DNA of 64,000 nt from Bifidobacterium sp. (GTDB taxonomy: Bacteria > Actinomycetota > Actinomycetes > Actinomycetales > Bifidobacteriaceae): assembly GCA_024104275.1 (NCBI GenBank), contig JAGGHK010000001.1:558001-622000 (forward strand), read 5' to 3'. Below are positions 15,202-29,549 of this stretch, in pieces. The stretch's first letter is position 1. Each line of letters starts with the position of its first letter. A model generated the notes under the pieces. It saw only the letters and a list, made by a program, of their open reading frames with translations, searched no databases and had not been told where the DNA came from. The position numbers were made by a program, and so were the translations under genes.

Positions 15202-15247
15202 GTATTATGACAAATCTCAAAACAAATGCTTGAGAGGAAATATCGAC

Positions 15248-15544
15248 ATGGCTACTGCAACTGTTTCCGCAAAGATAGACAAACGGACCGAAGAACTGGC
15301 CGACTCGTATATCCGTCAGGCTGGTCTCACTGCCGATAAATTGATTAGCCAGCTTTGGTCGAACATTGCCCGTACTGGCGTGGTTCCGACATTCGGTAAA
15401 GTCAGGAATGCTCGTCAGCACGACGACCGCAGAAAAGCGTTCCAAAAAGCTCAAAATATCGTATCGAACTTTCCCAAGGGAACCAGGCTCGTATCCATGA
15501 GCTATGACGATATACGCCAGGAACTGGAAGACCGCGATGTCTAA
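15248..15544 (+). CDS. RelB/DinJ-like antitoxin
   Basis: This 98-residue protein begins with a ribbon-helix-helix-type segment, ATVSAKIDKRTEELADSYI, followed by the helix pattern GLTADKLISQLWSNIARTGVVP seen in RelB/DinJ antitoxins. The C-terminal part is basic and then acidic (QELEDRDV), as expected for a toxin-neutralising tail. GAGAGGAAAT gives a good ribosome site for the ATG at 15248. It overlaps the toxin gene by 8 nt, so translation is coupled. Pairing of this antitoxin type with a PIN toxin instead of RelE/YafQ is the unusual point. Confidence 0.8.
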   Translation: MATATVSAKIDKRTEELADSYIRQAGLTADKLISQLWSNIARTGVVPTFGKVRNARQHDDRRKAFQKAQNIVSNFPKGTRLVSMSYDDIRQELEDRDV

Positions 15545-15953
15545 ACTTCTGATTGACACCAATGTCCTTATTGATTACTTGGTTCCCGATAGGCCGGAAC
15601 ACAGCAACGCGGAGCGGCTGTTGGCTCATCTTGCCGATAGCAATGACTGTGGTTATGTGACATCCGGGTCTCTGAAGGACTGCTACTACATTTGCTGCAA
15701 GTATATAGGTGAACAGGCTTGCAGAGGGCTGATTCGGGAATTTCTGATTATGTTCGAAGTTCCGCCAACCGGCAAGGTCGAATGTCAGGAATCCGCATAT
15801 TCGGATGAACCGGATTTCGAGGATGGTCTCATCCGGGCCGTGGCGGAAAACAACGACGCTGATTCCATCATTACCCGAGATTCTGCGGCTTTCCAGACCT
15901 CAGACATAAAAAGTATGACAGCAAAAGAATATTTGCAAAGTCTAGACCATTAA
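15537..15953 (+). CDS. PIN-domain toxin (VapC-like ribonuclease)
   Basis: This 138-residue protein has the PIN fold markers: LLIDTNVLIDYL at the N-terminus with the first metal-binding Asp, a central acidic segment DEPDFEDGLIRAVAE, and ADSIITRDSAAF near the C-terminus. PIN toxins are Mg-dependent endoribonucleases that usually cut tRNA or rRNA. The ATG at 15537 lies inside the end of the antitoxin gene. All expected acidic residues appear intact, so it is probably active. The target is unknown. Confidence 0.85.
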   Translation: MSKLLIDTNVLIDYLVPDRPEHSNAERLLAHLADSNDCGYVTSGSLKDCYYICCKYIGEQACRGLIREFLIMFEVPPTGKVECQESAYSDEPDFEDGLIRAVAENNDADSIITRDSAAFQTSDIKSMTAKEYLQSLDH

Positions 15954-16058: not shown

Positions 16059-16679
16059 TTATTCGTTGATGCCGTATTCCTTGGCGATGACGTCCCAGAG
16101 CTCGTCGGCGGCGCGATCCACGGTGTCGTTGACGATCTTGACATCGAATTCCGGCTCGGCGGCCAGCTCGACTTTCGCTGTTTCGAGACGTTTTTTGCGT
16201 TGTTCCGCGTTCTCCGTGCCACGACCGATCAGGCGCTTCACCAGCTCGTCGTAACTCGGCGGGGCGATGAACACCGAGACGATCTCAAGGTTAAGTTCGG
16301 CGGCACGTTGCTTCACACGTCTGGCACCTTGCAGGTCGATTTCAAGAATCGTCGGGATGTTCTTGGCCAAGTGGTCGAGCACCGGCTGCAACGGCGTACC
16401 GTAATGGGCCATGCCGTGCACGACAGCGGTCTCCAAGAACCAGTTCCGCTTCTCGCGCGCGACAAACTCGTCCTCGCTCATGAACCAGTAGTTCTTTCCG
16501 TTGACCTCCCCCGGCCGCGGCTCGCGCGTGGTGGCGGACACAGACACCCAGACCTCAGGATGCTTAGCCAGCAGATTCGCCTCAACGGTCCCCTTGCCGA
16601 CGGCCGTAGGCCCGGTCAGCACAATCAGCCGACCTTTATGTTGTTGCGTGCTTTTCTCGTTTCCACTGTTTGCGCTCAA
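16059..16679 (-). CDS. gmk: Guanylate kinase
   Basis: This 206-residue enzyme phosphorylates GMP to GDP. The P-loop is LTGPTAVGKGT, followed by the GMP-binding stretch SVSATTREPRPGEVNGKNYWF and the lid region IGRGTENAEQRKKRL. The start is TTG at 16679, with AAGGAG six bases upstream; no ATG nearby fits as well. Length is normal. The short N-terminal extension (SANSGNEKSTQQHKG) before the core is typical of actinobacterial members. It is separated from rpoZ by the plus-strand ilvD and toxin-antitoxin genes. Confidence 0.95.
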   Translation of the reverse strand: MSANSGNEKSTQQHKGRLIVLTGPTAVGKGTVEANLLAKHPEVWVSVSATTREPRPGEVNGKNYWFMSEDEFVAREKRNWFLETAVVHGMAHYGTPLQPVLDHLAKNIPTILEIDLQGARRVKQRAAELNLEIVSVFIAPPSYDELVKRLIGRGTENAEQRKKRLETAKVELAAEPEFDVKIVNDTVDRAADELWDVIAKEYGINE

Positions 16680-16915: not shown

Positions 16916-17884
16916 TCACTCTCCGGTGACCGGGTCGACGGCTTCGGCCACGGCCTTGACGTTCTGCGGCTTGAAGTAGATGCGCTCGGGGTTGTTGTAG
17001 AACACATCCTCAAGCTCGGACTCAGTGAAGATGTCCGTGGCCTCGAGCCAAGTGGACAGGTTGTGGTACGAGTTGAAGGTCGAGGACCACGGCGAATCGG
17101 TGCCCCAGAAGATGCGCTTGGCGCCAAGCACCTTCTTGGCCAGGGCGGTATCCTTCTGGCAACGCGGGAACGGGAACTCGGTCTCGCCCTCGATGTCCTC
17201 GATCGCGGAAAGCTCGACGGAGATGTTCGGATACGGCTCCCACTGACGCAGCTCGCATTCCAGGCGGTTGAGGTGGTCGGCGTTCGGGAAGGACAGGTGG
17301 CAGACCACGAAGTCGAGTTGCGGGTAGCGCTGCGCGAGGTTGGCGATGGCTTCGGGCTGATGGCTCAGCTGCGTGTAGTCGCCATAGTCCACGGTCACCA
17401 CGAAGCCGGGGTAATCCGAGATGTAATGGAAGAAGAGCCCGAGCCTCGGGTCGTTGTCGAGACGGAACGCATGGTGGTAGCCCATCAGGCCGCCTCCCTG
17501 GCTGATCTCAAGCTTGACCGCACGGAAGCCGAGGTCGTCGATATGGCGCTTGACCGAGGTCATCGCCTCGTCACTGAACGGATCGAATGAGAAGGCGCCA
17601 ATGAAACGATCCGGGTACTTCTTGACCGTCTGATAGGTGTAGTAGTTCTGGAAAGCGTAGAGGCTACCCTGCAGCAGGACGGCCTTGTTGATGCCGTTGT
17701 CGTCCATCACCTTGAGGGCCGACTCGGCGAGGAAGTCGTCGTCGCCCCAGCCGTCGGGGATGAGCTTCAAGGGCATGCCGTTGTCCCAGATGGCCTTGCC
17801 ATCGCCCAGCGGGGTCATGCGACCTTTGCCGTTGTAACCTGAGACCGAACGAACCAGATGCAGATGTCCGTCAATTTTTTTCAT
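16916..17884 (-). CDS. Amidohydrolase-family metal-dependent hydrolase, possibly a lactonase
   Basis: This 322-residue TIM-barrel protein belongs to the amidohydrolase-2 family. Metal ligands are visible: the HxH pair in DGHLHL (His7, His9), a His in VVCHLSFP and the late Asp in WGTDSPWS. A charged stretch PDGWGDDDF lies near the N-terminus. Relatives hydrolyse sugar lactones or decarboxylate aromatic acids. Because its neighbours act on sugars or sugar acids, a lactonase role is my inference. The start has AAAGGAG upstream. It is the last gene of the island, 25 nt after the PTS IIC gene. Confidence 0.75.
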   Translation of the reverse strand: MKKIDGHLHLVRSVSGYNGKGRMTPLGDGKAIWDNGMPLKLIPDGWGDDDFLAESALKVMDDNGINKAVLLQGSLYAFQNYYTYQTVKKYPDRFIGAFSFDPFSDEAMTSVKRHIDDLGFRAVKLEISQGGGLMGYHHAFRLDNDPRLGLFFHYISDYPGFVVTVDYGDYTQLSHQPEAIANLAQRYPQLDFVVCHLSFPNADHLNRLECELRQWEPYPNISVELSAIEDIEGETEFPFPRCQKDTALAKKVLGAKRIFWGTDSPWSSTFNSYHNLSTWLEATDIFTESELEDVFYNNPERIYFKPQNVKAVAEAVDPVTGE

Positions 17885-17909
17885 AATATACTCCTTTGTT
17901 ATTGGTTAA

Positions 17910-19364
17910 TCAGTACGTGATCTTTTCATCGCTGCCCGCATATCCGGCGTTCTTCTCGGACATCTTACGCAGGTAACGCCAAATCTGAGAGCGATACTTA
18001 CGAAGCAGGAACAGCAAAATCAGATAGACAACCACGCAGGCGCCGATGATGAACGGGTTCTTCGAGATGAATGCCGCGAAGATGAGCGCGTTCAGAGGAC
18101 GGGCCATGAGGTTGAAGCTGGTGATCAGCACCACGCCAGCGGGGATGGCCGCGCCATACTGCGAGACCGCGCCGGTGTAGATGTCGCCGAGCCAGCTGGA
18201 GGCGTAAAGGCCGAGGCTGAACCAGACGATGCCGTTGGCGATGACCTTCAGGATGTTGCCGCGGGTGATGGCCACGATGGACTCGACCATGAACGGCAGG
18301 GAGATGAGGTCGACGATGGGCAGGGTCTTGTTGCCGGGAAGCAGGAAGGCGATGAGCACCATGATCGGGATGAGAATGACGCCGGAGATGATGGTCGCGG
18401 GCTCGCCGTAGCCGACACCGTCGTCCACGCCGAGGAACCAGCGCTTCTTGTCATCGATCTCGTCGACGCTCGCGTCCTCTTCGCCGGCCTTCTTCTTGTG
18501 GTTCTGGTCGATCTCGTCGGCCAACGGGGCGAAGGCCTTGGAAAAGACGTTGGTGACCAGCGGGAAGATGGTCATCACTGCGGAGAGCTCGATGGTGAAG
18601 GTCAGGATCTGGCCCCATGCCTTGAGGCTCGCGAGGTTCGTGATGTTGGCGATGATGCCGATGATCAGGCCCAGGATGATGCCGAGTGTGGTCGGCTCGC
18701 CGAAGACGCCGAGCTTCTTCTTGAAGTACTGCGGGGTCATCTTGACCTTGTTGAAGCCGAGGAGGTTCCACAGCGGGTCGAGGAGGATGGCCGGGACGAC
18801 CTGCTCGATGTTGTGCAGGGAGGAGACCGTCGCGTTCTTCACGCCGTAGTAATCGGACCAGCGGTCGGCCTGGACTTCGGCCAGCAGCAGGGTGTAGAAG
18901 AGCATGAAGAAGGAGAGGCCCAGGGAAAGGGCGAAGTTATGGGTGACGTAGTAGCACAGCGTGCCCCAGATCATGAAGCCGAAGTTGTTCCACAGGTTGG
19001 AGGCCATGAAGACCTTGGTGATTCCCAACGCGAAGAGCAGCAGCTCGACGATCAGTCCGAACACGAAGAACGTCAGGCCCACCGGCGAGCCGAATGAGGC
19101 CAGCGAGCCGGCCTGCCAGCCGATGTCGACCACCGGCAGCTTGATGCCGGTGTTGTTGACCATCTGCTTGATGACCTTGGTCACCACGGGGGTGAAGGCC
19201 TGGATGATCCAGGTGAAGCCGGTCAGGCCGACGCCGGCGTAGAACGCGCTCATCATGGCGGTTTTCGGTTTGACCCGCAGACACAGAGCGACGATGAAGA
19301 TCATGATCGGGACGACGACGCTGGCCCCGAAGGTCTGGAATATTTGATTTACGGTTTCGAGCAT
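17910..19364 (-). CDS. PTS galactitol-type membrane component IIC (GatC family), orphan
   Basis: This 484-residue polytopic membrane protein has about 11 hydrophobic segments and a charged cytosolic loop (DQNHKKKAGEEDASVDEIDDKKR, about residues 285-310). The pattern matches the GatC/ascorbate-galactitol IIC superfamily. IIC proteins normally work with IIA and IIB phosphotransfer subunits, but neither is encoded nearby. A separate FGGY kinase is encoded in the island, so this IIC may act as a plain permease or borrow subunits encoded elsewhere. The start has only a weak GAGCGGAA site. A 390-bp gap with structured DNA separates it from the epimerase gene upstream. Confidence 0.82.
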   Translation of the reverse strand: MLETVNQIFQTFGASVVVPIMIFIVALCLRVKPKTAMMSAFYAGVGLTGFTWIIQAFTPVVTKVIKQMVNNTGIKLPVVDIGWQAGSLASFGSPVGLTFFVFGLIVELLLFALGITKVFMASNLWNNFGFMIWGTLCYYVTHNFALSLGLSFFMLFYTLLLAEVQADRWSDYYGVKNATVSSLHNIEQVVPAILLDPLWNLLGFNKVKMTPQYFKKKLGVFGEPTTLGIILGLIIGIIANITNLASLKAWGQILTFTIELSAVMTIFPLVTNVFSKAFAPLADEIDQNHKKKAGEEDASVDEIDDKKRWFLGVDDGVGYGEPATIISGVILIPIMVLIAFLLPGNKTLPIVDLISLPFMVESIVAITRGNILKVIANGIVWFSLGLYASSWLGDIYTGAVSQYGAAIPAGVVLITSFNLMARPLNALIFAAFISKNPFIIGACVVVYLILLFLLRKYRSQIWRYLRKMSEKNAGYAGSDEKITY

Positions 19365-19505
19365 TTCCGCTCACACTTTCTTTCAAGGTACAGGTCATGC
19401 CCGTAAGGGCATGTGTACGACGAATTCCTTGAAACTTTCCGGTGCAACCACTGCACCCTGTTCGGCATTGAAGGAGTTAGCTTCATCGCCTTCAACTATG
19501 CAATC

Positions 19506-19521
19506 ATGACAACTTTATCGA
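19506..19521 (-). promoter_or_regulatory. Degenerate copy of the island operator upstream of the IIC gene
   Basis: ATGACAACTTTATCGA matches the 16-bp operator ATGACACCGGTATCAT at 11 of 16 positions, keeping ATGACA and TATC. It lies about 140 bp upstream of the IIC start. The match is only suggestive. Confidence 0.3.
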
Positions 19522-19539
19522 TTGCTTGCATTTGGTTTT

Positions 19540-19750
19540 GCCACCCATGGAATGGTGCTTGGGCCCATACCTTCTCTCATCAATGGTATGGAAGGCGCCT
19601 CCCTCTTGAGCGGGGTTGGAGTCATCATTTCAGATGCTGGGCGGTTCGGCTCCAACCCCAGGGACAAGCCCTTCGTCACCAGGTTCTGCCATGAGATCCT
19701 TCTTTCTCATCGTGGTTCCCCAGGCGGGGTCGCCCGGGGTTTCTCATTAA
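19540..19750 (+). other. Structured intergenic block ending in a plus-strand terminator
   Basis: Inside the 390-bp gap between the IIC and epimerase genes are CCATACC/GGTATGG (about 19567 and 19585) and GGGGTTGGAG/CTCCAACCCC (about 19615 and 19650). A GC-rich hairpin CCCCAGGCG/CGCCCGGGG follows at about 19718-19739, with a TTTCTC tail on the plus strand. The tail orientation suggests a plus-strand transcript ending here, against the flanking genes. Open frames exist on both strands, but none has a ribosome site or family resemblance I recognise. A small RNA, a leader or a decayed gene are all possible. Confidence 0.45.
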
Positions 19751-19754
19751 AAAG

Positions 19755-20624
19755 TCAGTCGACGGGTTCCTGCTGGATGCCGACCTTGCGGAAGATGTCG
19801 TCGAAGAAGCTCTTGGCCTTCTTCACTTCGGCGACAGGGTCCGGGGCCTTGTTCGTCCACATCTCGATGGTCATCGCGCCGGTGTAACCCAGACGGTGCA
19901 GGGTGCGCAGGCATCCCTCGAAGTCGACCGAGCCATCGCCGAACGGCACATCGCGGAACTGGCCCTTGCTGGTCGCACTCACGGGCTTGCTGTCCTTCAG
20001 GTGCACGGAGACGATGTTGTCGATGCCCATCTCGAGCTCCTTGCCGACATCGTTCTCCGGCCAGCCGGAAAGGTTGCCGAGATCAGGATAAGCCTGCAAC
20101 CACGGGCTGTGGATCTGCGTCTTCAGATAGATGATCTTCTGCAACGAGTTGAGGAACGGATCATCCATGGTCTCGATGTCGAGCATGACCTGCCGGGTCG
20201 CCGCGTATTCGACGCCCTTCTTGAGATTCTCGACGAACCATTCGCGCGATTCGAGGGTCTTCGGCTCGTAATACACGTCGTAGCCGGCCATCTGGATGTT
20301 GCGGATGCCAAGGTCATAGGCCAGGTCGATGGCCTTGTAGAGCATCTCGAGGCTGTGCTCGCGCACCTTGGGGTCGGCGGAGCCCATCGGGAAACGGCGG
20401 TGGCCGCTCAGCATGAGCGTGTGGATGCGCACGCCCGTGTCCCAGGCTGCGTTGCGCAGGTCCTCGCGCTGCTCGCGTGTCCAGTCCAGGCGGGCCAGGC
20501 GCTCGTCGCTTTCGTCCACCGAAAACTCGATGAAATTGAAACCGAGGTCATGCACCAGCTGCAGGGTCTTATGCCAAGACTCGACGGCAGGCAACGCCTT
20601 CTCATATATACCCAGTGAATTCAT
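19755..20624 (-). CDS. ulaE: L-ribulose-5-phosphate 3-epimerase (UlaE/SgbU-like)
   Basis: This 289-residue TIM-barrel protein of the xylose-isomerase-like fold matches UlaE/SgbU, which interconvert L-xylulose 5-phosphate and L-ribulose 5-phosphate. Markers are NSLGIYEKALP at the start, EFSVDESDERLARLDW, the catalytic/metal Glu in LDIETMDDPF, and IVSVHLKDSKPV. The late acidic residue in MTIEMWTNKAPDP also fits. The ATG at 20624 has GAGGAAGG upstream and overlaps the kinase stop by 4 nt, so it is translationally coupled to the FGGY kinase. This gives the island its clearest biochemical anchor. Confidence 0.9.
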   Translation of the reverse strand: MNSLGIYEKALPAVESWHKTLQLVHDLGFNFIEFSVDESDERLARLDWTREQREDLRNAAWDTGVRIHTLMLSGHRRFPMGSADPKVREHSLEMLYKAIDLAYDLGIRNIQMAGYDVYYEPKTLESREWFVENLKKGVEYAATRQVMLDIETMDDPFLNSLQKIIYLKTQIHSPWLQAYPDLGNLSGWPENDVGKELEMGIDNIVSVHLKDSKPVSATSKGQFRDVPFGDGSVDFEGCLRTLHRLGYTGAMTIEMWTNKAPDPVAEVKKAKSFFDDIFRKVGIQQEPVD

Positions 20625-22141
20625 CGTGTTCCTTCCTCAGGGGTTGCTTGTAATTTTGACCAGACACCGTTCAGAGCATCCAGCAACGTCTGATAACGTT
20701 CGTACTTCTCGTCGTATTTGCGGTGTTGCACCGCATCGGGCTCGAAGCGCGAATCGACGTGGATCATGTGGTCCGCGGCCTGCTGCAAGGTCGCGTATTC
20801 GCCCGTGGCGAATGAGGAGAGCACCGCGCCGCCGAGGCCGGTGATCTCATGGCCTTTGATTGTCTCCACCGGCAGACCGAGGATATCGGCGAACATCTGC
20901 ATCCAGGAGGGCGAATTGGCCGCGCCGCCGCAGACCCGCAGGGATTCCGGGCGCGTGGTGTCCGAGCTCAGCAACTGGTCGATGTGCTGGCGGTGCGCGA
21001 AGACGACAGCCTCGTAGACCGCGCGGACCAGCTGCATGCGCGTGGTCGTGCTTTCCAGACCCACGAACGAAGCCGTGGCGTCCGGGTCGCTGTTGCTGCC
21101 GTAAAGGAACGGAGTGTAAAGCACCTGTGTGAAATCGGCGTCCTCTTGTTTGAGGTTCGCCTCCAAGCGCTGGTAGTCCTCGCCGCTGTCCTTGCCGTCA
21201 GGCGAAAGCAGGCGCAGAATCCGGCTGAGGTTACCCGAGGATGTCGGACTCGAGGCCTCGACCAACACCCGGCCCTTCAGGAACAAAGAGTTCATGATGC
21301 CGGGCATGCGCACGGTCGGCGCCTTGGAAAGATAGGTGTTGATGCTCCACGTGCCGGCGATCACCGAATAGTGGTTATGGTCCAGTGCTCCGGAGCCCAA
21401 GGTTCCCGCATCGATGTCGAAAAGTCCTCCGGTGACCGGTGTTCCTTCGATGAGACCGGTCTCATGTGCGGCTTTAGCGTCAACTCTATCAACGATATCG
21501 GCGGATTCGACCAAGCCCGGCAGCCATTGCGAGGCTTCGGAAATACCGAAGAAAGCGAGAAGCCTGTCGTCGTAGTTACGGGTCTTCAAATTGATGAGGT
21601 TGTTGCCCGAGGCGTCGCCGACCTCCTGGTGGATGCCGCCGGTCAGCAGATAACGCACGAAATCCTTGGCCGACAGGACGCTGCCGATGTTGACATAGCG
21701 CTGGGGATCGTGGTCCTTGATCCAACGCAGCAGGACCGGCGACTGGCTGGCCATGACATGCTGGTGGCTGATTGGGTAGATCTCCTCGATCCGCGTCTCG
21801 AAGCTACGCGCCAAAGCCTTGGCGCGCTCGTCGGTCGACAAAATGCCGTTGCAGAAAATCTGGCCGTTCTTGTCGAGCATGTAAAGGCCCTTGCCATGCC
21901 CCACGCAGGTGATGCAGGCGATGTCCTTCGGCGAGACGCCGGTCTTGTCAAGAACCTGCCTGATCGCGGCGAACAACGAGTCGCGCATGCCCTTGAGGTC
22001 GATCTCCCTCATCTCGGGCGTGTCCTGGATCCAAGGTGTGTCGAAGACGGAGACCCCGACCTGGGTCCCTTCCTCGTCGAAGATCAACGCGCGGGTGTTG
22101 GTCCCGCCGTTGTCAAGAATCAGGAAATAACGTGCGGCCAT
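20621..22141 (-). CDS. FGGY-family carbohydrate kinase (L-xylulose/L-ribulose kinase type)
   Basis: This 506-residue kinase has the FGGY N-terminal phosphate loop FLILDNGGTNTRALIFD and the central catalytic motif GGLFDIDAGTLGSGAL. The C-terminal ATP-site signatures are RVCGGAANSPSWMQMFADI and ITGLGGAVLSSFATGEY. Such kinases phosphorylate ketoses, polyols or related sugars. Coupling to an UlaE-like 3-epimerase and a YiaL-like protein suggests L-xylulose or a close ketose, as for LyxK, but the substrate is inferred from context. AGGTGA lies upstream of the ATG. It starts 2 nt after the propeller gene ends, so they share a transcript. Confidence 0.85.
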   Translation of the reverse strand: MAARYFLILDNGGTNTRALIFDEEGTQVGVSVFDTPWIQDTPEMREIDLKGMRDSLFAAIRQVLDKTGVSPKDIACITCVGHGKGLYMLDKNGQIFCNGILSTDERAKALARSFETRIEEIYPISHQHVMASQSPVLLRWIKDHDPQRYVNIGSVLSAKDFVRYLLTGGIHQEVGDASGNNLINLKTRNYDDRLLAFFGISEASQWLPGLVESADIVDRVDAKAAHETGLIEGTPVTGGLFDIDAGTLGSGALDHNHYSVIAGTWSINTYLSKAPTVRMPGIMNSLFLKGRVLVEASSPTSSGNLSRILRLLSPDGKDSGEDYQRLEANLKQEDADFTQVLYTPFLYGSNSDPDATASFVGLESTTTRMQLVRAVYEAVVFAHRQHIDQLLSSDTTRPESLRVCGGAANSPSWMQMFADILGLPVETIKGHEITGLGGAVLSSFATGEYATLQQAADHMIHVDSRFEPDAVQHRKYDEKYERYQTLLDALNGVWSKLQATPEEGTR

Positions 22142-22142
22142 A

Positions 22143-23159
22143 TCAGTTCACCTCATCGGTAATGTGGTAGATGGCCAGCGAATTGCTTTCGCGGTTGGCG
22201 CTCAGCAGATAGTCCTCGCCGTCCTTGCGGAACACGGTGACGTTGCTGGGACCGACCCCGGATTCGATGATGGTCTTGTGCATCTTGCGGTCGGGGGCCG
22301 TGATGGTCATCAGCTCCTGGTCTCCCCCGCGGTAGCCGAAGAGGAAATAGGGCTTTCCAAAAAGCATCTCGCTGTCAATGGCATGACCGAACGGCGACGA
22401 GCCTCCCTCGGTGGTGTCCAACGTGTTGAACTGGTCGTCGTAAAGCCTTAAGTGGTCACCATGGAAACCCTGGATGGCCAGATACTCTTCATGGCCGTGG
22501 CCGTCGATGTCGATCATGGCGATGTCGCTGGTCTCGTCATCGGCCAAGCGCTCGATACGCCAATCCTCGCCATCCTGCGGATAGTGCAGGCGGAAGATGC
22601 CCTCGTGCCCGGTGATCAGCGAGGTCGTGGGGGTCTCGCGACGGTATCCGTGGTTCTTGGTGATCCTGACATCAAGCTCGCGGACGTCCTTCAGGCAGTC
22701 GGCCACCGGGTCATAGTTTCCCACGAAGACCTTGCCCGGATCAGACCAGTCGTCGGTGAACTTCTTGGAATTGGCGATGGAGCAGCCGACGTACCAATAC
22801 CCGCCATCATGCTTGATGACGTCGAAGCGGTGGATGTAGGGTGTGTCAGCTATCGGCGTGACGTCCCAGTCGCTGCCGTTGAAATGCGCGTGCACGATAC
22901 GGCAGGCCTTGGAGTTGAAGCCCGGATAGAAACGCTGGGTGGCTAGGAAATCCAGCGTTCCCGGCAGCTGGACCATGGTCATCGTGCCGCCGACATCCGG
23001 CCAGACCGTGATGCGGCGGTAGTTGTCGTCGAGATCGTAGGCATAGCAGGGGCGATTCTCCTCGGAAGCGATGAGCACAAAATCGCGTCCGAGTTCGTTC
23101 ATCCGCAAAATCGCGTAACCATGGTCGAGCTCGTCTTTGAAAACCTTGGAAAATCGCAT
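22143..23159 (-). CDS. Unrecognised cytosolic beta-propeller-like protein
   Basis: I do not recognise a named family for this 338-residue protein. It is rich in beta-strand-like segments and acidic loops, with FG-GAP/VCBS-like pieces such as AMIDIDGHGHEEYLAIQGFHGDH. Repeating aromatic turns suggest a propeller. There is no signal peptide or membrane segment, so it should be cytosolic, unlike most FG-GAP proteins. It sits between the dehydrogenase (24 nt upstream) and the kinase (1 nt downstream), tightly inside the operon. A lactonase, epimerase or sugar-binding role would fit the position, but none is shown. The start has GGAGAGGTC-like sequence just upstream. Confidence 0.7.
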   Translation of the reverse strand: MRFSKVFKDELDHGYAILRMNELGRDFVLIASEENRPCYAYDLDDNYRRITVWPDVGGTMTMVQLPGTLDFLATQRFYPGFNSKACRIVHAHFNGSDWDVTPIADTPYIHRFDVIKHDGGYWYVGCSIANSKKFTDDWSDPGKVFVGNYDPVADCLKDVRELDVRITKNHGYRRETPTTSLITGHEGIFRLHYPQDGEDWRIERLADDETSDIAMIDIDGHGHEEYLAIQGFHGDHLRLYDDQFNTLDTTEGGSSPFGHAIDSEMLFGKPYFLFGYRGGDQELMTITAPDRKMHKTIIESGVGPSNVTVFRKDGEDYLLSANRESNSLAIYHITDEVN

Positions 23160-23183
23160 GACCTCTCCTATGCCTGTTTGCTG

Positions 23184-24137
23184 TTACTTGTTGACGACGT
23201 TGATCGGCTTGCCGTCGAAGAAGCTGATCAGGTTGTCGGTAGCCTCGGCGGCGAGCCTGATGCGGGCCTCGACGGTGCCGGTGCCGGCGTGGGGCGAAAG
23301 CACCACGTTGGAAAGCGAGCGGAGCTCTTCGGAGACCTTCGGCTCGAACTCGAAGACATCGAGCCCGGCGCCGGCGATCTGGCCGGTTTTCAGCGCTTCG
23401 ACAAGCGCCTTCTCCTGGACGATCGGGCCGCGCGCGGCGTTGACCAGATAGGCGGTGTCCTTCATCTTGGCGAACGCATCGGCATTGAAGACGCCATGCG
23501 TGCTCGGCAGCTCGGGAGCGTGGATGGTCACCACGTCGGAACGCTTCAAGAGCTCATCGAAGCTGACATACTCGCAATTGTTCTCACGGTCGAAATCCTC
23601 GCCGAAGGGGACGTCGTTGTTGTAGATGACCTTCATGCCGAAGGCCTGCGCGAGCTTGGCGACCGTCTTGCCGATGCGGCCCATGCCGAAGACACCCAAA
23701 GTCAGGCCGTTGAGCGTGCGGCCCTGGTACTTGCGCTCGGAAGGATCGATCCACTCGCCGCGGCGGACGATGCCGTCATAGAAATGCAGACGCTTGACCG
23801 TGGCGAGGATCAGCGTCATCGTGAACTCGGCGGTGGGGATGCGCACCTCACGCGGGCTGTTCGAGACGACGATGCCCTTCTGCTTGGCGTAGTCGACATC
23901 GACGTGGTCGTAGCCAACGCCGTTGACCGAAATGACCTTCAGGTTGTCGCAGGCGTCAATGAGCTCGCGGTCGCCCTTCTGCGCCATGAGGATCATGCCG
24001 TCGTACTCGTGGCCGTGCTCCAGGACGAAGTCGCGGGTGAACGGCTTGTCAGCGGAATACGTCACATCGAAACGGTCGAACAGCTTGTCAAGCCCTTCGC
24101 GAGGAACAATCCCCGTCACCAGAATTTTCTCGGTCAT
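23184..24137 (-). CDS. D-2-hydroxyacid dehydrogenase
   Basis: This 317-residue NAD(P)-dependent enzyme has the D-isomer-specific 2-hydroxyacid dehydrogenase layout. The nucleotide motif is LGVFGMGRIGKTVAKLAQ. The catalytic residues are Arg in NAARGPIVQE, Glu in GAGLDVFEFEP and His in LSPHAGTGT. It could reduce a 2-keto sugar acid or oxidise the matching hydroxyacid. The ATG at 24137 is preceded by AAGGAGAACA. It is the first gene behind the strong promoter and two operators of the island. In the E. coli yia pathway the reductase is YiaK, which is unrelated, so this would be a functional substitute if the pathway is similar. Confidence 0.88.
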   Translation of the reverse strand: MTEKILVTGIVPREGLDKLFDRFDVTYSADKPFTRDFVLEHGHEYDGMILMAQKGDRELIDACDNLKVISVNGVGYDHVDVDYAKQKGIVVSNSPREVRIPTAEFTMTLILATVKRLHFYDGIVRRGEWIDPSERKYQGRTLNGLTLGVFGMGRIGKTVAKLAQAFGMKVIYNNDVPFGEDFDRENNCEYVSFDELLKRSDVVTIHAPELPSTHGVFNADAFAKMKDTAYLVNAARGPIVQEKALVEALKTGQIAGAGLDVFEFEPKVSEELRSLSNVVLSPHAGTGTVEARIRLAAEATDNLISFFDGKPINVVNK

Positions 24138-24215
24138 TGTTGTTCTCCTTCGTTAACAAATAAAAACCGTTAAGCTCAAATATTCTTTGGAATCAAAATC
24201 CTTGAAATTACAAGG

Positions 24216-24231
24216 ATGACACCGGTATCAT
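24216..24231 (-). promoter_or_regulatory. LacI-type operator, proximal copy
   Basis: ATGACACCGGTATCAT is a near-palindrome with the central ACCGGT. An identical 16-mer lies at 24281-24296. This copy lies about 80 bp upstream of the dehydrogenase start. A LacI-family repressor is encoded 0.8 kb away, so autoregion control by that protein is likely but inferred. Confidence 0.8.
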
Positions 24232-24280
24232 AAGGAACAAAACACCTTCGCCTCGGTTTCTGCATTTCAGGTTTCTCCTA

Positions 24281-24296
24281 ATGACACCGGTATCAT
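24281..24296 (-). promoter_or_regulatory. LacI-type operator, promoter-proximal copy
   Basis: This is an exact second copy of ATGACACCGGTATCAT, 65 bp from the first. It begins about 25 bp downstream of the -10 box at 24321-24326, where a bound repressor would block transcription. Two sites 65 bp apart would also allow looping. Confidence 0.82.
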
Positions 24297-24320
24297 TTTT
24301 CGATTTCAATAACAACTCTT

Positions 24321-24348
24321 ATTGTAAATACAAATTCAGCGTTGTCAA
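24321..24348 (-). promoter_or_regulatory. Near-consensus promoter of the sugar/sugar-acid operon
   Basis: On the minus strand TTGACA (24348-24343) and TACAAT (24326-24321) are separated by 16 bp. The predicted start site leads into two identical operators and then the dehydrogenase gene. The surrounding DNA is AT-rich. Confidence 0.75.
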
Positions 24349-24431
24349 ATGAAACACACATCTTGCTCGTCCTGCCCGCAGTCCATGGCCCCATACGGCG
24401 TGTCGGCGATCCATGAGCACAGACCAGCGTT

Positions 24432-24902
24432 TCAGAGCACCGAGATCTTGACGACGACCTTGTGCACTGGTTCGGCAGTGTCCCCCACCATGCCGCGCGG
24501 GGCATGCATGTCCTCGGGATAGACGAGCACGTAATGTTTCGGGGTCAAAAGAACGCGGTTGCTGTGCTCAGGATGCGGATAGAAGACGATATCATTCTCG
24601 GCGTTGTACTCCGTCTTCGGCTCAACGCTGCCGGTGTCCCACCAGCGCACGTATTCCTGGCCAGAAAGCAGATAATGCAAGTCGATGTGGTCGTGGTGGC
24701 TTTCGTAGTTGATCTTGTCGTAGTCCATCGAATCGTAGCTCTGCAGATGCACGACGATGTCGTCGCTTCCGTCCAGCGAGTAGGTCTCATCGGGCTTGTC
24801 CGCAAGTTCCTGCCAGTGCGAGTTGAGGTAGGCGATGGCCTTGTCGATCCTGGCGCGGACCTTGGGATCCGTACGATAGTCCACAGCGTTTCCGTTTTCC
24901 AT
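24432..24902 (-). CDS. YhcH/YjgK/YiaL family protein
   Basis: This 156-residue cupin-like protein belongs to the YhcH/YiaL/TabA/EbgC family. Family features are SYDSMDYDKINYESHHDHIDLHYLLSG, with the His and Glu residues that form the central pocket, and VLVYPEDMHAPRGM near the end. Members are thought to act as sugar or sugar-acid mutarotases or isomerases and often sit in sialic acid or diketogulonate operons. AAAGGAG precedes the ATG at 24902; an upstream start at 24920 is less supported. It lies between the LacI terminator and the main promoter, so it may form its own short transcript. Its presence beside an FGGY kinase and UlaE recalls E. coli yiaL-lyxK-sgbU. Confidence 0.85.
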   Translation of the reverse strand: MENGNAVDYRTDPKVRARIDKAIAYLNSHWQELADKPDETYSLDGSDDIVVHLQSYDSMDYDKINYESHHDHIDLHYLLSGQEYVRWWDTGSVEPKTEYNAENDIVFYPHPEHSNRVLLTPKHYVLVYPEDMHAPRGMVGDTAEPVHKVVVKISVL

Positions 24903-24942
24903 AATGATTCTCCTTTGCATCGTAATGAATCACATGAAAGCA

Positions 24943-24958
24943 TCGTTCTTGGTAACGA
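24943..24958 (-). promoter_or_regulatory. Possible operator upstream of the yhcH-like gene
   Basis: TCGTTCTTGGTAACGA has 5-bp inverted arms (TCGTT/AACGA) around a 6-bp centre, 41 bp upstream of the ATG. It differs from the main island operators. Support is weak. Confidence 0.3.
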
Positions 24959-24961
24959 CAA

Positions 24962-24994
24962 ATAAAAATCCTCACACTGGAAAACAGCATGAGG
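24962..24994 (-). terminator. Probable intrinsic terminator of the lacI-type gene
   Basis: On the minus strand CCTCATGCTG and CAGTGTGAGG pair with two mismatches around TTTTC, followed by ATTTTTATTT. It starts about 50 nt past the regulator stop codon. Confidence 0.7.
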
Positions 24995-25042
24995 CCTACC
25001 GACACGCTTCATGAACGGAGTATGGAACGAGAACCCGGAAAC

Positions 25043-26029
25043 CTAGCGAAGCGCCGTCGAATCCCTGATCACCAGTTTCGACTGTATGATATGGGTCTCG
25101 GGCTTATGACCGACCAGGGTGGCGCCTTCGAGCAGCGTTTTGGCCGAGACATAGCCCATCTTGTACGAATCCTGTCGGACCGCGGTGATCGCCGGGTTTA
25201 GGAACTCCATCCAGTCCCAATCCTCGAACGAGATCACGCCGACATCGCGGCCAATGGCGATGTGGTGTTTCCTGGCGAACTTCAGAAAGATCTTCAGCGC
25301 CTCGCCATTGGAGGTGAAGACCCCTTTCGGCCGCCTGCCTGACACGAACAGGCTCAACAGCTTTCCATCGGCCTCATCCGCGGTGTCAAAGGAAACGACC
25401 AACGGTTCCTGCTGGTCTTTCACGGCATCAAGATAGGCATCGCAACGGATGGAACGGGTGGTCACCGACTTCAGATCAAGCGTCACAAAGGCGATGGGCG
25501 TGCATTGTTGGTGTTGAAGATAGCGGATGGCGTTCAGAGTGCTGTCGTAGTTGTCGGAAGTGACGGTTGAGAAGAGGTCTTTTTTCAGCGGGCGGTCGAT
25601 GATGACGGTTTTCTGCGAATCGAGCCCGGAGAGGAACTTCTCGTTGTCTCCGCAGGTCTGGATGATCAGCCTGTCGACACTGGATGACCCGAAATTCTTG
25701 ATGATGTCGCGTTCCCGTTTGATGCTTCCACCGGAAATGGCGAACGCCGTGGATTGCCCACGTTCCGCACAGGCGTCAAAGATGCCTTTCATGAACACCG
25801 AAGAAAAAGGATTGCTGATGTCAGAAACGACGACACCGACCGTCGGCATCTGCCCACGTGCCAAGCCAACGGCCACCTGGTTGGGCCGATAATCAAGTTC
25901 CTGGATGACCTTTGACACGATTTCCTGGGTGGAAGGCGAGATCTTGTCCCTCTCCCCTCGGATGTAACGGGAAACGGTCGATTTCGAGACACCGGCTCGC
26001 CGCGCGATATCTCTAATCGTGTAATGCAT
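25043..26029 (-). CDS. LacI-family transcriptional regulator
   Basis: This 328-residue repressor has an N-terminal helix-turn-helix, YTIRDIARRAGVSKSTVSRYI, then the hinge helix region YRPNQVAVGLARG. A periplasmic-binding-like effector domain follows (GVVVSDISNPFSSVFMKGI, VISFEDWDWMEFLNPAITAV). The length is normal and the start has AAAGG upstream. It is the most likely binder of the two identical ATGACACCGGTATCAT sites upstream of the neighbouring operon. The effector is probably the imported substrate or a phosphorylated intermediate. Confidence 0.92.
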   Translation of the reverse strand: MHYTIRDIARRAGVSKSTVSRYIRGERDKISPSTQEIVSKVIQELDYRPNQVAVGLARGQMPTVGVVVSDISNPFSSVFMKGIFDACAERGQSTAFAISGGSIKRERDIIKNFGSSSVDRLIIQTCGDNEKFLSGLDSQKTVIIDRPLKKDLFSTVTSDNYDSTLNAIRYLQHQQCTPIAFVTLDLKSVTTRSIRCDAYLDAVKDQQEPLVVSFDTADEADGKLLSLFVSGRRPKGVFTSNGEALKIFLKFARKHHIAIGRDVGVISFEDWDWMEFLNPAITAVRQDSYKMGYVSAKTLLEGATLVGHKPETHIIQSKLVIRDSTALR

Positions 26030-26177: not shown

Positions 26178-29100
26178 TTACTCCACGTCTGAGGCGAAGA
26201 GCTGCTTGGCGTGTTCCTGGATGCTCATCACCTGGTAGTCGTTGGCCTGCACCGCCTCGATGGCCAGAAGCACCGCGTAGAACTCGGTGATGGTGGTGAA
26301 TTCGGGGATGTCGGCGATGATGGCCGAGGCGCGGATCGCGTAGCCGTCGCTTCGGGCGCCGCGCGAACTTGGCGTGTTCAGGACCATGTCGATTTCGCCG
26401 TCCTCGATCATCTGGACAGGGTTCTTGCCGATGTAATCGTCGCCATATTCCGCCTTTACTTCCTGCTCGTGTTCCGGCGTTTCCGAAATCTTGCTGACGA
26501 CCTTGGAATCGATGCCGTAGCGGCGCAGGACCGAGGCGGTGCCTTCCGTGGCGCAGACCGTGAAGCCTAGCTCCTTCAAACGCGTGGCGACCAATGGCAA
26601 CTGACGCTTGTCCGTGTCGGAAACCGAAAGGAAGACATTGCCATGAGTCGGCAGACCACCCTCATAGGCGGCGAGCTGGGACTTGGCGAAGGCGTGCGGG
26701 AAGTCGCGGTCGAAGCCCATGACCTCGCCGGTCGAGTGCATTTCCGGACCAAGCAGTGTATCGACGGATTTGCCGGCCTCGGTGCGGAAGCGCTTGAACG
26801 GCAAGACGGATTCCTTGACGGCGACCTGCTGACCGGGGCGGATGGTGCCGCCGTCGCCCTTGGGAAGGAGCAGCCCGCGGCGACGCTGATCGGTGATGGT
26901 CTCCCCCACCATGATGCGGGCCGCGGCCTTCGCCAGCGCCACGCCGGTCGCCTTGGAGGCGAAGGGAATGGTGCGGGAAGCGCGCGGGTTGGCCTCGATG
27001 ACATAAAGCGTGTTGGCCATGTAGGCGAACTGGACGTTCATCACGCCGCGCACGCCGCAGCCTTCGGCGATGGCAAGCGTCGCCTTGCGCAGGCGCTGGA
27101 TCTGGTCATCGGAAAGCGTGGAGGGCGGCAGGGTGCAGGCGGCGTCGCCGGAATGAACACCGGCTTCCTCAACGTGCTCCATGATGCCGCCGATGTAAAG
27201 TTCCTTGCCATCGTAAAGCGCGTCCACGTCGATTTCGATGGCGTCCTGAAGGAACTTGTCGATCAGGAGCGGCGAAGGCAGGCGACCGGAAACCACCGTG
27301 TCGGCCTTGGCCTCTTCGAGTGCGCGGTCGACATATTTCTCAAGCTGGGCATCGTCGTAGACGATTTCCATGCCGCGTCCGCCAAGCACGTAGCTTGGGC
27401 GCACCAGCACCGGATAGCCGATGGAGTGGGCGGCTTCAAACGCTTCGTCGATATTGAGCGCGGTGCCGTAGCGCGGTGCGTTGAGCTTTTCGCGACGCAG
27501 CACCTCACCGAACAGCTCACGGTTTTCGGCCAAGTCGATGGACTCAGGCGAAGTGCCGAGAATCGGAACACCAGCGGCCTTGAGACGTGCTGCCAACGAC
27601 AGCGGGGTCTGCCCGCCGAGCTGGACAATGACGCCCTTGATCGGGCCTAGCTTCTTCTCGGTCGCGTAGATCTCCATGACGTCTTCGAAGGTAAGTGGTT
27701 CGAAATAAAGCCGGTCGGACATGTCGTAATCGGTGGAAACCGTCTCAGGGTTGCAATTGACCATGATGGTGTCATAGTCCTTGCCCAATTCCTGCACGGC
27801 GTGCACGCAGGTATAGTCGAACTCGATGCCTTGGCCGATACGGTTGGGGCCGGAACCCAAGATGATGACAGCTTCACGCTTACGCGGCTTAAGCTCGGAT
27901 TCATCGGCATAGCAGGAATAGTAATACGGCGTGACCGCGTCGAATTCCGCAGCACAGGTGTCGACGGTCTTGTAGACCGGACGCAGGCCATAGTTGTGGC
28001 GCAGCTCGCGGATCGTGTTCTCACCCTCGTCGCCCAGGTGACGTAGGTGTGCAATCTGCAGGTCGGAAAGTCCGGCCAGCTTGGCCTTCTTTAGTAGTTT
28101 CGGAGACAGGATTTCGGTGAAGCGCACTTCCATCGCGGTCTGGTTGATCAAGGCGAACTGCTTGAGGAACCACGGATCGATCTTGGTGGCGTCGTAGAGC
28201 TGCTCGAGCGTGGCTCCGCCCCAAAGTGCGCGCTGGACCTGCAGATAACGATTCTCCGTAGGCGTGCGCATGTCTTCGAGCAGCTGATTCACCTCGGCCT
28301 GGTCAGGCTTGGTGCCGTCCCAGCTGAAGCCCATGTGACGCTTGTCGATGGATCGCATGGCCTTGCCCAGCGATTCCTGGAAGTTGCCGCCAAGGGCCAT
28401 CGCTTCGCCCACCGACTTCATCGAAGTGGTCAGTGTCGGGTCGGCTCCCGGGAACTTTTCGAAGGTGAAACGCGGCACCTTGGTGACCACGTAGTCGATG
28501 GTCGGCTCGAAGCAAGCCGGGGTGGACTGGGTGATGTCGTTGCGAATCTCGTCCAGGCTGTAGCCGAGGGCGAGTTTCGTGGCGATCTTGGCGATCGGGA
28601 AACCGGTGGCCTTCGAGGCAAGGGCCGAGGAACGGGAGACACGCGGGTTCATCTCGATGACGATGATGCGGCCGTTCTTCGGGTTGACGGCGAACTGGAT
28701 GTTGCAACCGCCGGTGTCGACGCCGACTCCACGGATGATGGCGATGCCGATATCGCGCATGCGCTGGTACTCGCGGTCGGTCAGCGTGAAGGTCGGGGCC
28801 ACGGTAATGGAATCACCGGTGTGCACGCCGACCGGATCGACGTTCTCGATCGGGCAGACGACCACGACGTTGTCGTTGCGGTCGCGCATGAGCTCGAGCT
28901 CGTATTCCTTCCAGCCTTCTATGCCCTCTTCGATCAGGACCTCATTGGTCGGCGAATAGTGGATACCTGCGCCGGCGATGCGGTGCAGTTCCTCTTCGTT
29001 GTGCGCGATGCCGGAACCGAGCCCGCCCATGGTGAAGCTGGGGCGGACGACCACCGGGAAGCCGAGTTTGTCGACGATGGCGTCGACTTCTTCAAGGGTA

Positions 29101-29549
29101 TGGGCCACGTCGCTTCGCGCGGACTCTCCCCCGACCGATTCCACGACCTTCTTGAACTGCTCACGGTCTTCGCCACGGTCGATGGCAGCAAGCGAGGCGC
29201 CGATGAGTTCGACGTGGTATTTGTCGAGCACGCCGGCCTTGCCCAGCGCTTCTGCCGCGTTCAACGCGGTCTGGCCACCGAGTGTCGGCAGCAGCGCGTC
29301 TGGGCGTTCCTTGGCGATGATGCGTTCCAGAATCGGCACGTCAATCGGCTCTATATAAGTGGCATCGGCCATTTCCGGATCGGTCATGATGGTGGCCGGG
29401 TTGGAATTGACGAGAATGACACGGATGCCTTCCTTACGCAGCACGCGGCAGGCCTGGGTGCCGGAATAGTCGAATTCCGCGGCCTGGCCGATGACGATGG
29501 GGCCGGAGCCAATGACCATGACGGATTTGATGTCCTGACGTTTCGGCAT
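26178..29549 (-). CDS. carB: Carbamoyl-phosphate synthase large subunit
   Basis: This 1123-residue synthase makes carbamoyl phosphate from ammonia, bicarbonate and two ATP for pyrimidines and arginine. Two ATP-grasp halves are visible: [20 protein letters not shown] near the N-terminus and [20 protein letters not shown] near the middle. The C-terminal allosteric MGS-like domain follows ([30 protein letters not shown]). AAGGAG precedes the ATG. The start overlaps the carA stop as TAATG, so translation is coupled. It is the last gene of efp-nusB-carA-carB. Confidence 0.97.

Follow-up and report, generated by a model that had tools for sequence, protein, structure and literature searches.

A LacI-type sugar-acid island of Bifidobacterium encoding an unnamed protein that possibly takes the place of the decarboxylase UlaD

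The described systems closest to the locus studied here are the Escherichia coli operon yiaKLMNO-lyxK-sgbHUE and the ascorbate operon ula (ulaABCDEF, ulaG, ulaR). The locus lies in the window, a stretch of 64,000 nucleotides from contig JAGGHK010000001.1 of a Bifidobacterium sp. genome (GCA_024104275.1), where eight open reading frames on the minus strand at positions 16916-26029 form an island beginning with a gene for a LacI-type regulator. The island shares with the yia/sgb operon a homologous YiaL-type protein, a LyxK-type kinase, and a UlaE/SgbU-type epimerase, and 3-keto-L-gulonate 6-phosphate and L-xylulose 5-phosphate are expected to be intermediates common to both; a UlaE-type epimerase is also what it has in common with the ula operon. 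The original prediction, made from the sequence without database searches, had placed eight genes with these three families in the island and had described a yia/sgb-like core under LacI control; the reading frames and family matches came out as claimed, and operator-like sites were found as well (Table 1). The island further encodes a protein without a family name, hereafter PROP. To our knowledge, the decarboxylation of 3-keto-L-gulonate 6-phosphate is known only from the orotidine 5'-monophosphate decarboxylase suprafamily. We lean towards reading the island as a catabolic operon under LacI control whose substrate is an unphosphorylated sugar acid of the vitamin C type, with PROP included in the following course.

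The substrate and every reaction of this route are what we infer from the gene content. The substrate would most likely be dehydro-L-ascorbate and/or 2,3-diketo-L-gulonate. A GatC-type EIIC would import it without phosphorylation, an Amidohydro_2 protein would open the lactone, and a D-2-hydroxyacid dehydrogenase, in the part of YiaK, would reduce the 2-keto group. The LyxK-like kinase would make 3-keto-L-gulonate 6-phosphate, which PROP, in the part of UlaD/SgbH, would decarboxylate to L-xylulose 5-phosphate; this catalytic role of PROP is put forward tentatively. The UlaE-like epimerase would then make L-ribulose 5-phosphate, and a UlaF protein encoded on another contig of the genome (contig 14) would make D-xylulose 5-phosphate for the bifid shunt. 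Entry into that shunt at D-xylulose 5-phosphate is established for the genus Bifidobacterium.

The evidence on PROP comes mainly from a second class. In a sample of 396 genomes of the phylum, a PROP profile gave four matches, one in the window's genome and three in genomes of another class, and PROP was found in 16 of 246 genomes of that other class. We take the latter to be Coriobacteriia, partly from the ula operon of Atopobium that is mentioned in PMC3219644. The PROP loci were read in 15 of the 16 genomes; the remaining one (G715), with PROP fragments at contig ends, was not fetched. A DeoR-type regulator, EIIA, UlaA-type EIIC, EIIB, PROP, and UlaG were encoded in this order in 14 of these 15 loci, and the fifteenth (G643) stopped at a contig end; no UlaG was found in the G643 genome at E values up to 1e-60. 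The loci usually continued with UlaF, UlaE, transaldolase, and transketolase, and in one of them (G525) UlaG and UlaF both shared 59% identity with their E. coli counterparts. Twelve loci reached both UlaE and UlaF, a count that leaves out G727 and G643 (contig ends), G717 (UlaE only), and G715 (fragments). No UlaD was found by tblastn with two UlaD queries in the PROP loci of this class, including these 12.

Searching the 246 genomes for UlaG gave 20 loci, spread over 18 genomes. Fifteen of them, at 70-100% identity, were distributed over 15 genomes, all among the 16 with PROP. The other five were at 49-53% identity: two (G787 and G762) were complete operons without PROP, in the order UlaG-EIIA-UlaA-EIIB-UlaD-UlaE-UlaF, and three had no UlaE or UlaF nearby. 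UlaG was present in the same three other-class genomes of the phylum sample as PROP and absent from the window's genome, for which no UlaG homologue was found at E values up to 1e-60. In the operons read, EIIB is thus followed by either PROP or UlaD: the PROP loci were without UlaD, and the PROP-less operons had UlaD after EIIB. With the 12 PROP operons, the chance figure for this comparison was 1 in 91, which is made too strong by the relatedness of the genomes. The comparison did not include the three UlaG loci without PROP and without UlaE or UlaF nearby (L141, L142, L143), one in G720 and the others being second copies in G781 and G717; they comprised UlaG-like genes of 47-50% identity and a distant UlaA-type EIIC, and probably belong to another route.

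Both kinds of gene set were found together in G791. On one strand, this genome encodes EIIA-UlaA-EIIB-PROP-UlaG, an ATP-binding cassette (ABC) importer (a binding protein and two permeases according to Pfam), an amidohydrolase, a dehydrogenase, a LyxK-like kinase, UlaF, and UlaE; the dehydrogenase and the kinase were 34 and 42% identical to those of the window. Mixtures related to this arrangement were present in G727 and G749. The gene run suggests that a phosphotransferase system (PTS) branch with UlaG and an importer-kinase branch would share PROP, UlaE, and UlaF, and the two branches would meet at 3-keto-L-gulonate 6-phosphate. In the shared gene set, PROP is the sole gene to which no role could be assigned and decarboxylation the sole step without a gene. 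PROP as an ascorbate-6-phosphate lactonase replacing UlaG was rejected, since UlaG adjoins PROP in 14 of the 15 other-class loci.

The run in G791 also bears on the notion of an unrelated catabolic island that shares a propeller-like protein with ula operons by chance, which we regard as very improbable. Such an origin would accord with the identity of about 30% between the other-class PROP and that of the window, and with the window epimerase, which is nearer to that of a UlaD-type operon (61%, G787) than to those of PROP-type operons (43%). It is opposed by G791, where a single run combines ula genes and PROP with the amidohydrolase, dehydrogenase, and LyxK-like kinase, and by 51 positions of PROP, start residue counted, that were invariant in 22 sequences. 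These positions include His110, His170, His233, His259, Arg111, Arg277, Arg323, Asp137, Asn169, and Glu324, and a DxDGxG loop at 217-222 was likewise invariant. A ring of four histidines suits a metal site, as in some propeller lyases; that the four histidines of PROP form one is a guess.

No Pfam or NCBIfam family matched PROP at E values up to 0.01, and comparison with the PDB gave weak matches only (best E value 0.049, Lin2199, for the single sequence and 0.29 for the profile). PROP had been called propeller-like in the original prediction. The sole, indirect support for this is a match of one other-class homologue to FG-GAP_3 (30 bits, cut-off 26.9); among five further PROP sequences, four matched below the cut-off and the window protein itself gave no match. 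Two PROP queries had no match in plasmid records, and a search of viral contigs led nowhere. A scan of genomes with organism names gave two PROP loci, in Bifidobacterium sp. ESL0784 and B. commune.

Whether UlaD is encoded elsewhere was judged from a PF00215 search of all 23 genomes that carry PROP. Ten of the other-class genomes had one PF00215 protein each over the cut-off; three of these proteins were read and contained the PyrF motif DLKVHDIP, and the other seven had no significant match to E. coli UlaD. Nine of the ten genomes encode UlaG; in eight, the PROP locus includes UlaG, UlaE, and UlaF. The UlaDs of G787 and G762 kept all of ten positions of E. coli UlaD that we presume to have catalytic roles (D11, E33, D62, K64, D67, E112, H136, R139, T169, R192), whereas the full set was kept by none of the PF00215 proteins found across the 23 genomes with PROP. 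All seven PROP genomes of the Bifidobacteriaceae hold additional PF00215 members.

A second ula-like locus was identified on contig 14 of the window's genome (L016 5462-13079). It comprised genes for UlaF, an MFS transporter (by eye), a PfkB kinase, a UlaE-like protein, a UlaD-family protein, a phosphotriesterase-type lactonase, and a divergent regulator. The original prediction had expected a 4-epimerase elsewhere in the genome and had proposed a search for ulaF and ulaD; UlaF (PRK06557, 373.8 bits, cut-off 251) and a UlaD-family protein were both located here. Judged by sequence, this UlaF can complete the route of the island. The UlaD-family protein has the substitutions K64R and D67E in 10 of 10 genomes whose copies were fetched (the window's included), out of 30.

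It is conceivable, though on balance doubtful, that the ascorbate-type route is the same and PROP is accessory to it, as a lactonase, mutarotase, sugar-acid isomerase, or sensor, with decarboxylation occurring spontaneously or through the contig-14 UlaD-family protein or an unrecognised enzyme. A lactonase or mutarotase function is common among propeller proteins, which counts for such a role, and several observations weigh against decarboxylation by PROP. The contig-14 UlaD-family protein passes the NCBIfam subfamily cut-off for 3-dehydro-L-gulonate-6-phosphate decarboxylase (262.6 vs 250) and could serve the island, leaving PROP another job. A protein of this type is encoded, at another locus, in all six PROP carriers of the genus, and it is over-represented there (30 of 189 Bifidobacteriaceae genomes vs six of the seven PROP carriers; chance value 6e-5 ignoring relatedness), a pattern that either a role in the island or common descent would produce. 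G149, a PROP carrier of another genus, keeps PROP and a PF00215 protein in one island, the latter scoring higher with hexulose-phosphate synthase (124.6 bits) than with UlaD (49-52). Further PF00215 proteins are encoded elsewhere in six other-class PROP genomes, only two complete operons without PROP were found, and the operons compared are related by descent. Decarboxylation of a beta-keto acid may also proceed non-enzymatically. Beyond PROP, the kinship of the window epimerase with that of a UlaD-type operon is a point against the proposed route, the substrate assigned to the amidohydrolase is a guess, and a D-2-hydroxyacid dehydrogenase is expected to give the C2 configuration opposite to that of L-gulonate; this last objection, reasoned from stereochemistry, is softened because the configuration at C2 is lost at decarboxylation. 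An accessory role of PROP is in turn hard to reconcile with the ten other-class PROP genomes without a UlaD-like protein, nine of them with UlaG and eight with the whole UlaG, UlaE, and UlaF set at the PROP locus, with the lactonase already supplied there by UlaG, and with K64R and D67E in the ten fetched copies of the contig-14 protein.

The genes of the island are arranged in the order LacI, YhcH, dehydrogenase, PROP, kinase, 3-epimerase, EIIC, and Amidohydro_2 protein, between carB (26178-29549) and gmk (16059-16679), names that were assigned from the sequences. Short gaps separate dehydrogenase and PROP (24 bp), PROP and kinase (1 bp), and EIIC and amidohydrolase (25 bp); kinase and epimerase overlap by 4 bp, and the gap between epimerase and EIIC is 390 bp. 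The source genome consists of 19 contigs with a completeness of 94.85%. Seven of the 189 Bifidobacteriaceae genomes searched carry PROP, the window's genome counted. As the original prediction had proposed, the whole gene set was searched in other Bifidobacteriaceae: G101, G097, G104 (Bifidobacterium sp. ESL0784), and G103 have all eight genes in identical order, with 84-100% identity per gene, so that the island is a real unit. It is adjoined by gmk in G104, G103, and G038 (B. commune R-52791), and gmk was not found in the island stretches fetched from G101 and G097. In B. commune (L014 8946-13355), only pieces or broken frames were recovered for the regulator, dehydrogenase, kinase, epimerase, and EIIC, YhcH was not found in the stretch, and the genes for PROP and the amidohydrolase alone look complete; the broken genes indicate that the island is decaying there. 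The island of G149 encodes LacI, two YhcH proteins, a permease (GntP-like by eye, without a Pfam match), a Hydantoinase_A protein, a 261-residue protein, dehydrogenase, PROP, kinase, epimerase, the PF00215 protein, and UlaF.

A GntP-like permease (by eye), a Hydantoinase_A protein, and an unnamed protein travel together, next to genes of ula or LyxK type, at three loci (L015 4252-8582, L087 13461-18033, L115 9220-13819), one in a bifidobacterial relative and two in other-class genomes. In the L015 copy, Hydantoinase_A was assigned by Pfam, and the unnamed protein of 261 residues has an HELFH motif (by eye).

Table 1. Features of the island, with positions in the window.
Feature	Position	Strand	Evidence
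LacI-family regulator	25043..26029	-	PF00356 64.7 bits; Peripla_BP_3 62.1 bits; 58% identity to G149 island regulator
YhcH/YjgK/YiaL (DUF386) protein, possible mutarotase/anomerase	24432..24920	-	PF04074 107.6 bits; 31% over 90 aa to E. coli YiaL
D-2-hydroxyacid dehydrogenase, proposed 2-keto (2,3-diketo-L-gulonate) reductase	23184..24137	-	PF02826 (2-Hacid_dh_C) 204.7 bits; GxGxxG, Arg, Glu, His motifs
PROP, 338 aa, no family name	22143..23159	-	no family over cut-off in Pfam/NCBIfam
FGGY kinase, LyxK group	20621..22141	-	FGGY_N and FGGY_C; 298 bits to E. coli LyxK; tree support 99/99
L-xylulose-5-P/L-ribulose-5-P 3-epimerase (UlaE/SgbU)	19755..20624	-	AP_endonuc_2; NCBIfam PRK13210 417.6 bits, cut-off 200; 52% to UlaE and SgbU
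GatC-type EIIC without adjoining IIA/IIB, proposed non-phosphorylating importer	17910..19364	-	PF03611 (EIIC-GAT) 232.9 bits
Amidohydro_2 protein, proposed lactonase	16916..17884	-	PF04909 104.5 bits
Sigma-70-like promoter TTGACA-16-TACAAT before dehydrogenase	24321..24348	-	11/12 matches
Putative operator O1, near-palindrome ATGATACCGGTGTCAT	24281..24296		identical in five intact-island genomes
Putative operator O2, ATGATACCGGTGTCAT in the window	24216..24231		one base different (ATGAGACCGGTGTCAT) in the other four intact-island genomes
Conserved structured intergenic stretch, epimerase/EIIC	19365..19754	-	folding z-score -3.14; 0/100 shuffles as stable

A promoter scan of the region found 3 promoter-like sites where 3.3 were expected by chance; the weight of the dehydrogenase promoter therefore comes from its conservation, both hexamers being recognisable in five aligned genomes. 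O1 and O2 follow this promoter with a spacing of 62-65 bp in the five genomes, and are sites that a LacI-type repressor could use. When up to two mismatches were allowed, the stretch around the decayed island of B. commune still gave no operator-like site, and the sole one in the G149 stretch (two mismatches) precedes the regulator. The promoter and the two operators cover dehydrogenase, PROP, kinase, and epimerase. Of the co-regulation assumed for the whole island in the original prediction, that of these four genes is supported by sequence; YhcH lies upstream of the promoter and EIIC and amidohydrolase lie beyond the 390-nt stretch, so that their co-regulation with the block is plausible and no more. 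The 390-nt stretch, with a mean column identity of 85% in five genomes, contains a 10-bp stem (GGGGTTGGAG/CTCCAACCCC), and no Rfam match was obtained for it or for the island at E values up to 1.

A perfect palindrome, ATGAGACCGGTCTCAT, was observed within the kinase gene at 21450-21465, two mismatches from the operator. G097, G104, and G103 have a similar site equally far from the start of the kinase gene, and G101 has none. The palindrome could serve as a third operator, or it could simply reflect the codons for HETGLI. Between ilvD and gmk, at 15230-15953 of the window, a gene for a PIN-domain protein (PF13470) overlaps a small upstream reading frame without a Pfam match, perhaps as a toxin-antitoxin pair.

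Among E. coli proteins, the kinase was closest to LyxK (298 bits, 34.7% over 499 aa), followed by LsrK (134), XylB (114), and GlpK (82). In a tree of 14 rows, in which several reference branches are long, the window kinase and six other island-type kinases grouped with LyxK. D-xylulose kinase and glycerol kinase, activities that the original prediction had seen as contrary to its proposal, were rejected on the basis of these sequence scores. LyxK is reported only from a few groups of Gammaproteobacteria in the part available of a survey of FGGY kinases (PMC3245297), and with respect to that part, the actinobacterial LyxK-like group would, on sequence grounds, extend its range. The epimerase was 52% identical to SgbU/UlaE and 42% identical to a second UlaE-like protein of the same genome.

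LyxK is annotated as an L-xylulose kinase, and kinase and epimerase alone would suffice for L-xylulose. This suits an island for a free pentulose or pentose (L-xylulose, L-lyxose), in which the kinase would give L-xylulose 5-phosphate directly for the epimerase, and the acid and lactone enzymes would serve a side substrate such as a pentonolactone. We consider this improbable, because no sugar-isomerase family (e.g., L-arabinose or L-fucose isomerase) is found among the eight proteins, the hydroxyacid dehydrogenase, amidohydrolase, and YiaL-type protein suit an acid, and PROP is tied to ula operons, whose intermediates are 3-keto-L-gulonate 6-phosphate and L-xylulose 5-phosphate (PMC3219644).

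The only solved structure matched by the EIIC was the galactitol IIC 9u82 (138.6 bits). Its identification as UlaA was rejected, with this structural match and no blastp match to E. coli UlaA (E values up to 1e-3). The genome-wide PTS search was made with PF02302 IIB (IIA families not included); this domain was not found at E values up to 1e-3 in G097, G103, and G104, three of the five genomes with intact islands, nor in G038. The window's genome encodes one PF02302 IIB, with another EIIA and EIIC next to it, and G101 encodes four. The IIC had been listed as a PTS component; from its occurrence in three intact-island genomes without this IIB, it is probably outside any phosphorylating PTS and most likely works without phosphorylation, which fits the kinase downstream. 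PTS phosphorylation as the general mode was rejected on the evidence of the same three carriers. The amidohydrolase had no solved relative at E values up to 0.001. Its HxH, His, and Asp metal-ligand motifs are kept in all eight aligned sequences, and homologues (42-44% identity) are encoded near ula and dehydrogenase genes in two other-class genomes.

For L-xylulose and ascorbate, regulons have been predicted in B. bifidum, SgaR for L-xylulose (L-xylonate elsewhere in the same paper) and SgaR2 for ascorbate (PMC4746261, in part). The substrate had been called undescribed for bifidobacteria, which is too broad in view of these predictions; the LacI island itself is not met in that part of the paper, and the regulator names there differ from the LacI type. 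The contig-14 locus of the window's genome, rather than the island, may be related to these regulons. Literature searches on a replacement of UlaD found nothing, and those on ascorbate and bifidobacteria and on bacterial use of diketogulonate found nothing on this island. If the proposed role of PROP is true, the decarboxylation of 3-keto-L-gulonate 6-phosphate has a second, unrelated solution in a protein family without a name, the seemingly broken ascorbate routes of the nine UlaG genomes without a UlaD-like protein become complete, and a protein without a Pfam or NCBIfam name gains a testable function. There would then be a kinase branch for unphosphorylated, oxidised vitamin C built of swappable parts, with an EIIC, a GntP-like permease, or an ABC system as importer and an amidohydrolase or a Hydantoinase_A protein.

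Compared with the known systems, the yia/sgb operon of E. coli has YiaK, a TRAP importer, SgbH, and SgbE, whereas the island has the D-2-hydroxyacid dehydrogenase, the GatC-type EIIC, the amidohydrolase, and PROP instead. The absence of YiaK, TRAP transporter, decarboxylase, and 4-epimerase had been noted in the original prediction, and none of the eight proteins matched TRAP, YiaK-, UlaD-, or UlaF-type families: no match to YiaK was obtained by blastp, no TRAP family was found by family search (YiaMNO were not compared directly), and no SgbH/UlaD decarboxylase with intact catalytic residues was found in the island by Pfam, the contig-14 protein having K64R and D67E. The regulators differ as well, the E. 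coli operon having PlaR/YiaJ of the IclR family (PMC6958661) and the island a LacI-type protein. The ula operon has the UlaA/B/C PTS and UlaG, which are missing from the island, where the kinase would replace phosphorylation by the PTS; in one form of the other class, the ula operon itself has PROP in the place of UlaD. The proposed route is a variant of the known yia/sgb and ula pathways; what is new in it is the possibility that PROP replaces UlaD without being related to it.

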